This document shows positions 10,869 to 14,252 of a stretch of 37,492 nt of DNA, in pieces. The stretch is taken from assembly GCA_039196715.1 (NCBI GenBank), contig JBCCUP010000044.1:1-37492 (forward strand), given 5' to 3'. The translations under genes were made by a program, and so were the position numbers. Within the stretch, counting starts at the first letter, position 1. Every line of letters begins with the position of its first letter. The notes under the pieces are model-generated. The model saw only the letters and a list, made by a program, of their open reading frames with translations, did not search any database and was not told where the DNA came from. Source of the stretch: Pseudomonadota bacterium. Lineage in GTDB: Bacteria; Pseudomonadota; Gammaproteobacteria; CALCKW01.

Positions 10869-11544
10869 CGAAGATGCGGTATCCGGCCCCCGCGGCGCTG
10901 TGCAGCAACGCGGTGGCATAAGGTTTGTCCAGCGCCTTGCGTACGGTGTAGACGTGGGTGCGCAGGCTGTCGCTCTCGGCGAGCTCGCGACCCCACACGC
11001 GTTTCTCGAGCACGCTGCGCGAGACGTAGGCCGGAGAGGCACGCATCAGGGTCTCAACGATACGGTAGCCGATCGGTGTCAGGCGAATCGGCTCACCGTC
11101 TCGCGTCAGCAGGCGTTGCGCCGGGTCCAGCACCAGGCGGCCGACCGTGACAGTGCCGCTACTGGCATAGTGAAGGTGGCGGCGCAACATCGCTTCGACC
11201 CGTGCCAGCAACTCTTCGGGTGCGAAAGGTTTGACAAGGTAGTCGTCGGCACCGGCACGCAGACCGCTGACGCGGTCTTCGATGGTGTCGCGCGCGGTCA
11301 GCATCAGAATCGGGGTGGTGTCACCCGCGTCTTCGCGCAACCGCCTGCACACTTCGAGGCCGTCTAGGCCGGGCAGCGACAGGTCGAGCACGATCAAGTC
11401 GTAGTTGTTGCCCAACGCAAGCTCCAGCCCGGTGTCGCCGCGTCGGCTGAAATCCACGGCGTAACCGCCGGAGGTGAGCCGCTCGCTCAGCATCTCGGCG
11501 AGATCGAGGTGGTCTTCGACAAGGAGTATGGTGGCTGCACTCAC
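10852..11544 (-). CDS. OmpR-family response regulator
   Basis: A 230-residue regulator: a receiver domain (residues 5-118) with phospho-acceptor Asp54 (IVLDLSLPGLDG), Thr83 in LTARD and Lys105 in VKPF, then an OmpR/PhoB winged helix (about 130-227, ending HVYTVRKALD...AGAGYRIF). The open frame extends to 11673, but receiver domains begin with ILLVEDH, so GTG 11544 is the best start; no clear Shine-Dalgarno site precedes it. It is cotranscribed with the kinase downstream. About 80-100 bases upstream are two 9-bp direct repeats one helical turn apart, the usual geometry of OmpR-family sites, which suggests autoregulation. Confidence 0.92.
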   Translation of the reverse strand: MSAATILLVEDHLDLAEMLSERLTSGGYAVDFSRRGDTGLELALGNNYDLIVLDLSLPGLDGLEVCRRLREDAGDTTPILMLTARDTIEDRVSGLRAGADDYLVKPFAPEELLARVEAMLRRHLHYASSGTVTVGRLVLDPAQRLLTRDGEPIRLTPIGYRIVETLMRASPAYVSRSVLEKRVWGRELAESDSLRTHVYTVRKALDKPYATALLHSAAGAGYRIFDETAD

Positions 11545-11621: not shown

Positions 11622-11641
11622 GTGCGTGAAGGGTGCGTGAA
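11622..11641 (-). promoter_or_regulatory. tandem direct repeat, candidate response-regulator site
   Basis: GTGCGTGAA occurs twice (11622-11630 and 11633-11641) with an 11-base period, upstream of the response-regulator start at 11544. OmpR/PhoB proteins bind as head-to-tail dimers to direct repeats spaced 10-11 bp. The 10-mer GCGTGAAGGG at 11624-11633 is repeated exactly at 13231-13240 upstream of the DUF4397 lipoprotein gene. Confidence 0.55.
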
Positions 11642-11671
11642 CGCCGCCAGTGTAGCGCAGTATCGGCGTGC

Positions 11672-11704
11672 AAAACGGCGCTGCCCGTCGCCGGACAGCG
11701 CCGT
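11672..11704 (-). terminator. intrinsic terminator after the DUF4397 lipoprotein gene
   Basis: Read on the minus strand, ACGGCGCTG, a 12-base loop and CAGCGCCGT form a perfect 9-bp GC-rich stem followed by TTTT. It starts 15 bases after the lipoprotein stop and precedes the regulator promoter, so the lipoprotein and the two-component system are separate transcripts. Confidence 0.75.
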
Positions 11705-11718
11705 GTCCCGTCGGGTGA

Positions 11719-13188
11719 TCAGCGGCTGAGCAGGATCAGGCCGAAGTCCTGCGGTGCGACGTGCACACCTTCGATCGGGCCGCGTGCAATGGCCGTGGAG
11801 ACCGAGCCTGCCGCGAGCTGAACACCTTCGGCGTTGATCGCGACGGCACCGCCTGCCACCACACGGACGTCGTAGCTGCCCGGGGTCAGTGCGAGGGCGT
11901 CGGTCACGTCGCCGAACGCGAAGCCGGAGAGCACCGGGTCGATCGTGTCGAGCGCGTGCGCGTTGACCTCGCCCGCGGCCGAGACGTACACGTCAACCGT
12001 GCCCGCAGCCGGCGCCCCGTGGACCACACGCAGGCTGGCCTGGGTCGCGACCGGGCGGTTCTCGTCCTCGAACGCGATCAGTCGGAACGCGTTGGCCGGG
12101 TCGGTGTTGGTCACGCGACCGACCGCCAGCACCGAGTAGTCCGACCCCGCAGCGAGATCGAGGTCACCGGAAGTGAAGACGCTGTCGCCGATCGTGTCCG
12201 TGTCGGGGGCGACGTCGAAGCGGTAGCCGCCGGCGGGCACGGTGACGTAGCTGTCAACCGAGGGCACCACGTCGGTGTAGCTGAAGGCATCGATCAACTC
12301 GATCGGGTGGCTGTCGGGCAGCGGCGTGGCCCACACCTCCACCGGGCCATGAGCTGCGACCCGCGCGTCCGGAGACACGTGGACCACGCGGGCGGCGGCC
12401 GGTGACATCGTGTTGCGCAGGGTTACCGTGGCCGATCCGGTGCCGACCAGCAGCTTGATCGGTGAACCGGTCTGCTCGGCGAACGAATCGCTTTCGATTG
12501 CAAACACCGACAGCGCGTTGCCGGCGAAGGGCGCGAGGTCGACGGTGCCCGAATCGAAGGCGACGGCGCCGCCCGCAGCGGCGATGATGCGCACCTCACC
12601 GGCGGGCAGTGCGCCGAGGTCGAGCGTCTGTTGGAAGGCCACTTCCGCACCAGGTGCGTTGAGGTCCAGCGGCGCGTTGGGTGCGAGCAGGTAGAGTTGG
12701 ACCGTTGGCGCGGCTGGCGCGGCGTGTGTGACGGTCAGGGTGATTTCGGAGGCGGCCGGCGTGGAGGCCGAGTTCGGCACCACCAGCGGGGCGATCTCGG
12801 CGACGTCACCGACGGCAACCACGGTGGTCTTGCTGCCGGCGGGCAGGGTCAGGCCGTCGACGCTGATCACGGTCGCGGTGCCGGCCGGCAGGATGCCGTC
12901 GACCGCGACGTCATAAGCGCCGGCGGGCACGGTCGCAAACCCGGAGCTCTCGCCGTAGTCGAGTGCCTCGATCGCGGTGGCGCCGTTCAGTGCGACATTG
13001 ACCGCAGGTGCGTCTGGTGATGCGTGCACAACGCGGATGGATGCGTTGGTGCCGATGTCGGCGCTGCTGCCGCTCGATCCGGTGACGGCGGCATTGTTCG
13101 TTGTGCCCACCGTGGCGCTGTCGTCGCAGGCAGCCAGCAGCAGCGCGCAACTTGCGACGGCGGCGTAGAGGGGTTTGATCTGAAACAT
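11719..13188 (-). CDS. DUF4397 repeat lipoprotein
   Basis: A 489-residue cell-envelope lipoprotein. The signal peptide ends in a lipobox (LLAAC, Cys21), followed by an acidic then Ser/Gly/Asn-rich linker, as in outer-membrane or surface lipoproteins. The rest is four beta-rich DUF4397 units, each opening with a variant of RVVHASPDAP (near residues 52, 153, 268 and 386) and continuing into V.VYV/VEVWA strands and a VPAG.Y.F/DV segment. DUF4397 domains are common in secreted proteins of unknown function and resemble Ig-like repeats. GGAGG eight bases before ATG 13188 confirms the start. An upstream array of GTGAA/GTCAA boxes links it to the neighbouring two-component system. A terminator follows the gene. 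Confidence 0.88.
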   Translation of the reverse strand: MFQIKPLYAAVASCALLLAACDDSATVGTTNNAAVTGSSGSSADIGTNASIRVVHASPDAPAVNVALNGATAIEALDYGESSGFATVPAGAYDVAVDGILPAGTATVISVDGLTLPAGSKTTVVAVGDVAEIAPLVVPNSASTPAASEITLTVTHAAPAAPTVQLYLLAPNAPLDLNAPGAEVAFQQTLDLGALPAGEVRIIAAAGGAVAFDSGTVDLAPFAGNALSVFAIESDSFAEQTGSPIKLLVGTGSATVTLRNTMSPAAARVVHVSPDARVAAHGPVEVWATPLPDSHPIELIDAFSYTDVVPSVDSYVTVPAGGYRFDVAPDTDTIGDSVFTSGDLDLAAGSDYSVLAVGRVTNTDPANAFRLIAFEDENRPVATQASLRVVHGAPAAGTVDVYVSAAGEVNAHALDTIDPVLSGFAFGDVTDALALTPGSYDVRVVAGGAVAINAEGVQLAAGSVSTAIARGPIEGVHVAPQDFGLILLSR

Positions 13189-13230
13189 GAATGGGTCCTC
13201 CGTTCTGGGAGGTGCCAGTCTGGCAATGTG

Positions 13231-13271
13231 GCGTGAAGGGACCTGTCAACGCCGTGTCAAGATGCCGTGAA
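13231..13271 (-). promoter_or_regulatory. array of 11-bp-spaced boxes upstream of the DUF4397 gene
   Basis: On the plus strand, GTGAA (13233-13237), GTCAA (13245-13249), GTCAA (13256-13260) and GTGAA (13267-13271) recur every 11-12 bases. The first box carries GCGTGAAGGG, identical to the box before the response-regulator gene. On the minus strand, two TTGACA hexamers fall inside the array; the one at 13249-13244 could be a -35 element, but I found no good -10. Confidence 0.5.
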
Positions 13272-13328: not shown

Positions 13329-14252
13329 TCAGTCGCGGCGTGCCCGGGGTTGTGAATCACGCTCTGTCTTGACGCGTTCGAATTCCGCCCGCTTCTCGGC
13401 GAGTTCCGCTGCTGTCAGGCGATCGGGGTTCGCGTAGTCCAGTCGCCAGTCTGCTGCGCCTGGCCAGCGCACCGCCGTGCGCCACGTCGTGCGTGGCGCC
13501 GTGGCGGCCGCGAGCAGCTCGAGACCGGTCAGGGCGATGGTGTCTTGCGAGGCCGTGTCGTGCGGCGGGCCACTGGCGTTGCCGAGCGGCAAATCGCTGA
13601 AAAGCAAGCGTGGCACACCGACGTGTTCGACGATGTCGAGCGCACAACCCAGGATAACCGTGGCCACGCCCGCGGCCTCCAGCGCGTGAGCCGTCAACGC
13701 CACCGATTGGTGACAGACCGGGCAATTCGGCACGAGCACCGCCACATCGATCCGGTCGGCGCGGCAGAGTTCGACCAGTTTCGGCGCGTGCGTCTGCGTC
13801 GTCGTGCGCACTGAACGGTCGGTCGGCAAGCCGTAGAACCGGTCGGCGACAGCACCGATCGCACCGCGCGCCGCCGCGCGCCGGTAGGCGGCAAGCGGAA
13901 AGTAGCTCGCCGGGTCTTCCGCTGTGGTGTGGGCGCGGTCGATGGCGACGTGGGCGATGCCGAGGGCGGGCGGTCGTGTGGTGGGTGCGGCGTACACCTC
14001 GAAGAACTTGGCCTTGCCGTTGTACGGCGCCCGCGGGCCTTGGTCGCCCGCGTCGGGCCGCACCGGTGCGGCGGTGGTGACCAGGCCGAGGCGGCAGGCA
14101 CTGAGAGGTTTCTGCAGCGGCTGAAAGGGCACCGACGCCAGTGACGCCCAGCGGTAGGGCTCCGGGTAGCCGAGCGCAAGGTACCAGGCGCGTGTGCGGG
14201 CCATGTAGGCAATCGGCACCTCGGCCGGGTCTCGGTGCGTGTCGGTGCTCAC
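13329..14252 (-). CDS. GrdB-like (glycine/sarcosine/betaine reductase selenoprotein B family) protein, Cys form
   Basis: A 307-residue protein resembling the proteobacterial proteins annotated as glycine/sarcosine/betaine reductase selenoprotein B family. The key segment is VLVPNCPVCHQSVAL (Cys177 and Cys180), followed by AAGVATVILGCALDIVEHVGVPRLLFSDLPLGN, which matches the family's conserved C-terminal half. Clostridial GrdB is a selenoprotein of a reductive amino-acid pathway with GrdA, GrdC and GrdD partners. None of these is present, and no UGA-Sec is needed, so this is a stand-alone Cys homologue with unknown chemistry, possibly thiol-based. The GTG start overlaps the EamA gene stop by 4 bases (GTGA), placing it third in a GNAT-EamA-GrdB-like operon. 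Confidence 0.7.
   Translation of the reverse strand: MSTDTHRDPAEVPIAYMARTRAWYLALGYPEPYRWASLASVPFQPLQKPLSACRLGLVTTAAPVRPDAGDQGPRAPYNGKAKFFEVYAAPTTRPPALGIAHVAIDRAHTTAEDPASYFPLAAYRRAAARGAIGAVADRFYGLPTDRSVRTTTQTHAPKLVELCRADRIDVAVLVPNCPVCHQSVALTAHALEAAGVATVILGCALDIVEHVGVPRLLFSDLPLGNASGPPHDTASQDTIALTGLELLAAATAPRTTWRTAVRWPGAADWRLDYANPDRLTAAELAEKRAEFERVKTERDSQPRARRD

Follow-up and report, generated by a model that had tools for sequence, protein, structure and literature searches.

Analysis of a 37,492-nucleotide stretch of gammaproteobacterial DNA (assembly GCA_039196715.1, contig JBCCUP010000044.1; hereafter "the window") points to a putative regulatory link in which a ColR-like response regulator quite probably binds an array of phased repeats and switches on the neighbouring gene for a DUF4397-domain lipoprotein. 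The genome carrying the window (G000, 4.95 Mb) was compared with three others of the same genus (G001, G002 and G003; four genomes in all). On the minus strand of the window, the lipoprotein gene (13188-11719, 489 aa) is followed by a response regulator gene (11544-10852, start codon taken as the GTG at 11544) and a sensor histidine kinase gene (10868-9600) whose start overlaps the end of the regulator gene. Three stretches of the lipoprotein pass in Pfam as DUF4397, and its score of 184.8 bits against a PF14344 cut-off of 30.6 places it in this family; its N-terminus carries a lipobox-like LAAC followed by Asp, and a single-sequence AlphaFold2 model (mean pLDDT 32.5) was useless as a structure. 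The regulator combines a receiver (Response_reg, PF00072, 100.6 bits) with a winged-helix Trans_reg_C domain (PF00486, 52.6 bits), as do members of the OmpR/PhoB family, and the kinase combines HisKA with HATPase_c. The immediate neighbours, named by reading the translations of the open reading frames, are a trimethylamine-methyltransferase-like gene, the DUF4397 lipoprotein gene and an EamA-like gene. A 307-aa neighbour (13329-14252, minus strand) is also found in G001 and G003, and its product has no Pfam match at E 0.001.

The repeat with an 11-bp period that a preliminary description had placed upstream of the regulator gene can be read directly as GTGCGTGAA at 11622-11630 and 11633-11641; on the coding (minus) strand it becomes a two-box repeat, TTCACGCACCCTTCAC (11626-11641, boxes 11637-11641 and 11626-11630), of the form TTCAC-N6-TTCAC. 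The four boxes reported upstream of the lipoprotein gene are likewise all present, as GTGAA (13233-13237), GTCAA (13245-13249), GTCAA (13256-13260) and GTGAA (13267-13271), with spacings of 12, 11 and 11 bp. Read on the coding strand, this candidate operator array (13233-13271) is TTCAC-N6-TTGAC-N6-TTGAC-N7-TTCAC, in which the three boxes at 13267-13271, 13256-13260 and 13245-13249 are in 11-bp phase, are kept in the congeners and sit 57-83 bp upstream of the start codon of the lipoprotein gene; the box at 13233-13237, 12 bp further, is not kept. The same description drew its link between the two sites from an exact 10-mer, GCGTGAAGGG, which does occur in both (11624-11633 and 13231-13240) but proved neither rare nor conserved in relatives. 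We rejected it as evidence: G000 holds 14 copies (8 forward and 6 reverse, against 5 and 0 for the pattern read backwards), and its box has another sequence in G001 and G003.

Three of the four genomes of the genus hold both the lipoprotein and a close relative of the regulator, G002 holding neither (best identity to the regulator, 44%). In G001 and G003 the lipoprotein and regulator genes follow each other in the same order as in the window, with identities of 89 and 82% for the regulator and 78 and 67% for the lipoprotein. The regions upstream of the three lipoprotein genes align poorly except for a core, AATCTTCACGnnATCTTGACA, and a third box 11 bp on; in the three-genome alignment, pairwise identity is 25/33, 25/33 and 29/33 over the 33 columns of the core and 43/90, 36/100 and 42/115 outside it. 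The fourth box is kept in neither congener; the conserved element is made up of the three upstream boxes rather than the 10-mer. G003 also has, before its regulator gene, a pair of boxes with the same geometry and other flanks (TTCACGCCACGTTCACA); no pair stands directly before the regulator gene of G001. In this last genome an additional lipoprotein-like gene (locus L045, 1350-2138, minus strand), preceded by its own TTCACGGAATCTTCACG, lies between the DUF4397 and regulator genes; its product resembles one DUF4397 segment, and Pfam finds nothing in it.

The 11-bp-spaced motif is not common in the genome. The three-box form TTNACN6TTNACN6TTNAC matches G000 once in 4.95 Mb, at the lipoprotein promoter, and G001 once, at its lipoprotein gene, while one of its two matches in G003 is at the lipoprotein gene of that genome; the backwards control gave 0 in each. 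Among the seven genomes searched, G002 has three matches (control, 0) and G013, from another family, has one (control, 1), all of them away from DUF4397 genes; G015 and G039 have no matches. The pattern is, in other words, rare without being exclusive to DUF4397 promoters. When the region upstream of the lipoprotein gene of G000 was dinucleotide-shuffled 3000 times, the exact three-box run never arose, nor did it for G001 and G003 (3000 shuffles each); the two-box run upstream of the regulator gene arose in 14 of 3000 shuffles of its own region. For the two-box form TTBACRNNNNNTTBACR, G000 yields 17 matches, compared with 3 when the pattern is read backwards. Three of these 17 are in the locus, and the remainder (10 within predicted genes, 4 intergenic) give us no ground to claim a wider regulon. 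The corresponding figures are 16 in G003 (3 in the locus, 10 within genes, 3 intergenic), 15 in G001 (3, 10 and 2) and 25 in G002, against 29 in controls. The division into genic and intergenic matches comes from a simple codon-usage script rather than a gene finder, and the lipoprotein arrays of G001 and G003 were counted as upstream of the aligned start, though over-long script ORFs cover them. The best-looking of the off-locus sites in G000, TTTACGCGTTCTTCACG (contig C15; L089, 2518-2534), lies directly upstream of a gene for a bacterioferritin-like protein; no match to this gene occurs in G001-G003. Another, TTCACGTTGCGTTGACA, is identical in three genomes (G000 C21 18915, G001 C109 1024 and G003 C171 23794) within a predicted gene near a paralogous regulator, which is probably due to coding conservation.

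Boxes of this kind recur at the same period among relatives of the regulator. In 34 upstream regions of related regulators (L014, L149, L161 and L171 being left out), TTBAC-N6-TTBAC occurs seven times at period 11 and zero to two times at any other period between 6 and 22; the shuffle mean is 0.14, and seven was reached in none of 500 shuffles. Removal of four near-duplicates (30 regions) leaves five matches at period 11, again reached in none of 500 shuffles, and the looser word TTNAV occurs 23 times at period 11 in the 34 regions against 1-9 at other periods. Four Pseudomonas loci account for six of the seven strict matches, and in these six the regulator gene is on the other strand; the boxes at L123 and L126 point to a divergent PAP2-like gene. 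We also re-analysed the seven published footprinted sites of P. putida ColR (PMC2689224, Table 1), at which the authors describe two repeats. All seven hold three YYNAS boxes 11 bp apart, the third lying exactly 11 bp from the known pair (before it at five sites, after it at two); other steps from 6 to 15 yield two such third boxes in all, and none of 20000 shuffles of the flanks gave more than five of seven sites with a third box. Of the four TTBAC boxes in the footprinted PP0900 site, three are in 11-bp phase. Since every footprinted ColR site holds a third box at 11 bp, the three-box array of the window has the look of known ColR sites.

The same arrangement appears in more distant bacteria. 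In G013, DUF4397, regulator and kinase genes lie on one strand in the order seen in the window, and the DUF4397 gene is preceded by four boxes (TTCAC/TTGAG/TTGAA/TTCAC) in exact 11-bp phase, a run absent from all of 3000 shuffles with the looser box TTSAV. As controls we took 16 upstream regions of DUF4397 genes without a known adjacent ColR-like system, 15 of which have no pair. The exception, from G095, reads TTGAC/ATCAC/TTCAC/TTGAC, four boxes in 11-bp phase, and this genome holds a strong relative of the window regulator (317 bits on the family model, the next best reaching 209); it was moved from the control to the supporting set after the fact. Its DUF4397 and regulator genes are each at a contig end, with no DUF4397 end within 215 bases before the regulator. 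In G095 (L265), as in L117, a ColR-like regulator-kinase pair is followed by a cyclopropane-synthase-like gene (named by reading translations), a type of cluster tied to photo-oxidative stress. The pairing of such a regulator with DUF4397 is rare: no DUF4397 gene was found in the flanks of 80 regulator relatives in named genomes (flanks of up to 4.5 kb, some shorter). A kinase and a regulator lie nearby in one of seven class-level DUF4397 loci (L215-L221), a DUF4397 gene of G169 (L216) being divergent from an EnvZ/OmpR-like pair without an array, and in the phylum-level loci L249 and L250 the regulator is matched more weakly and the kinase not at all. A single origin of the pairing, with the window, G001, G003, G013 and L137 in one clade, was neither rejected nor favoured (p-AU 0.081). 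In G584 (L236, 31-2880) a DUF4397 gene directly precedes genes for an ECF sigma factor and a ChrR-cupin protein and is itself preceded by a chalcone-isomerase-like gene; the ColR-like pair of G013 occupies the position of this ECF/ChrR pair, beside a chalcone-isomerase-like gene and a photolyase.

Phylogeny places the window regulator with ColR. In a tree with E. coli QseB, BasR, CreB and ArcA outside, it groups with Pseudomonas ColR in a clade of 38 rows (support 95/91), and a second tree, from a set without CreB, recovers a 28-row clade with Pseudomonas ColR against E. coli QseB and BasR (support 100/100). The three regulators of the genus form a long branch with no resolved place inside the ColR clade. 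No NCBIfam model was matched above its cut-off among the 25 matches listed for the window regulator. L123 and L127 were identified as ColR by their neighbouring genes (PAP2 or groEL, a methyltransferase and a kinase-like gene), a context that we take to be that of colRS in PP0900-0905 and PA4381. The window system shares with Pseudomonas ColR-ColS (PMC2689224; PMC4074579) its regulator clade, TTNAC half-sites in direct repeat, the 11-bp period and a target that encodes an envelope protein, whereas identity to Pseudomonas ColR is 48-49%. The 16-bp ColR consensus, given as (T/C)(T/C)NA(C/G)NN(T/C)TTTTT(C/G)AC in PMC2689224, is matched at 12, 14 and 12 of 16 positions by the window sites, every miss falling at positions 8-11; there, Pseudomonas ColR sites have a T-tract between the half-sites and the window sites do not. 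The ExxE metal motif of ColS (FExRE/ExxE) was not found before the second membrane helix of the window kinase, which reads NRAGVEGL where L123 has DFEERERVL, so that by eye the second Glu at most is kept; replacements of the first Glu of this motif are also described for RaxH in PMC8306577. Pseudomonas colRS genes adjoin lpxE/PAP2 or other lipid A genes, a methyltransferase gene and a kinase-like (WaaP/InaA) gene, none of which is beside the window pair. The signals that activate Pseudomonas ColRS are the metal ions Zn2+, Fe3+, Mn2+ and Cd2+. VgrR-VgrS and RaxR-RaxH of Xanthomonas, called ColRS-like in PMC8306577 and compared here by description only, resemble the window system in having a periplasmic loop between two membrane helices. 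They differ from it in their neighbours eptA/lpxE/arnT, absent beside the window pair, and in the EPQE of VgrS, at residues 43-46 according to PMC5231390, the ExxE-like strings of the window kinase not being kept in G003. Given that T-tract, ExxE motif and neighbours are all missing, the window pair is probably a ColR-like two-component system with a different dedicated target rather than ColRS proper.

Between the two units, where a terminator had been proposed, there is indeed a strong hairpin (11675-11704, minus strand; -32 kcal/mol, z -2.45), but the four U that follow make for a weak terminator-like tail, and a terminator scan requiring five T listed none. Hairpins occupy the corresponding place in G001 and G013, with none clear in G003; that of G013 is no lower in energy than shuffled sequence but has a T-rich tail. 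Given these hairpins after the lipoprotein gene in G000, G001 and G013, at least three genomes accord better with separate promoters than with read-through.

From these arrangements we infer a course of events in which an envelope signal would trigger the kinase and the phosphorylated regulator would bind as dimers, cooperatively, to the TTNAC boxes that the coding strand carries in 11-bp phase. A regulator bound at the position of the three-box array would be expected to overlap the -35 region and to activate transcription, and the DUF4397 lipoprotein would be a target dedicated to the adjacent two-component system and probably under its positive control. Positive control is suggested by this position and by analogy with P. 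putida ColR, which activates most of the targets examined, including PP0900 (PMC2689224). Feedback on the system itself may in addition come from the two-box site upstream of the regulator gene; such autoregulation is plausible in G000 and G003, though less certain, and P. putida ColR is reported in the same paper not to autoregulate. As for the idea of an operator of OmpR-family type shared by both units, conservation, near-uniqueness and the family-wide 11-bp TTNAC repeats speak for it, while the regulator's own pair is weaker and is absent directly before the G001 regulator gene.

Another regulator might bind these sites and leave the neighbouring two-component system uninvolved. The further response regulators of G000 number in the dozens (one CreB model gives 46 matches), and one of them, on contig C112, exceeds the NCBIfam cut-off for CreB (313.6 bits). 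Its tag also fits: the site before the regulator gene is exactly the cre/blr tag TTCACN6TTCAC of CreB-CreC and BlrA-BlrB given in PMC4689548. We nonetheless consider this explanation improbable and keep CreB as a rival only, not as the sole binder. G001 and G003 retain arrays and tags with no CreB above the cut-off of 273 bits (best scores 193.3 and 191.7, G001 being only 79% complete), CreD is absent from all five of five genomes, and the main array, TTCAC/TTGAC/TTGAC, is not the cre/blr tag. Nor is the window regulator itself a CreB, its 142.6-143.9 bits on NF008296 falling short of the same cut-off; it lies inside the ColR-like clade and E. coli CreB outside.

There is an equally small chance that the ColR-like regulator acts on the array in the opposite sense, the repeats being negative sites through which it keeps the lipoprotein gene repressed in the absence of a signal. 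A protein bound within the likely promoter region, where the array falls, could also repress, and the related VgrR represses tdvA (PMC5231390). The mostly activating role of P. putida ColR argues against repression here, as does the orientation of the L123 and L126 boxes toward their PAP2-like gene, matching that of the window boxes toward the lipoprotein gene. That the repeats reflect chance or a core promoter, with TTGACA serving as a -35 element and the spacing coincidental, we regard as highly improbable: two boxes do read TTGACA, GTGAA words are plentiful in GC-rich genomes and the 10-mer has 14 copies in G000, yet all three boxes are kept in 11-bp phase, occur about once per genome, are never reproduced by shuffling and recur in distant genomes.

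The preferred reading, activation of the lipoprotein gene by the adjacent ColR-like regulator, leads to a bolder joint proposal that we put forward as rather doubtful. ColR-family operators might generally consist of at least three 11-bp-phased TTNAC boxes rather than a pair, and DUF4397 lipoproteins might be dedicated envelope-stress lipoproteins encoded beside their regulators (ColR-like in four genomes, ECF sigma/ChrR-like in another). Asp at position +2 of a lipoprotein leads to inner-membrane retention, and such proteins could possibly be tethered there as co-sensors feeding back on the kinase. No report of two-component control of a DUF4397 gene was found in the literature searched, most subscription journals lying outside it; three papers there mention DUF4397, and the one among them that also contains "response regulator" concerns an archaellum. 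The putative link would give DUF4397, a domain family of unknown function, a regulatory home and would recast ColR-type binding as a clear three-box rule; if it is true, induction of the lipoprotein should follow any stimulus that triggers the kinase.
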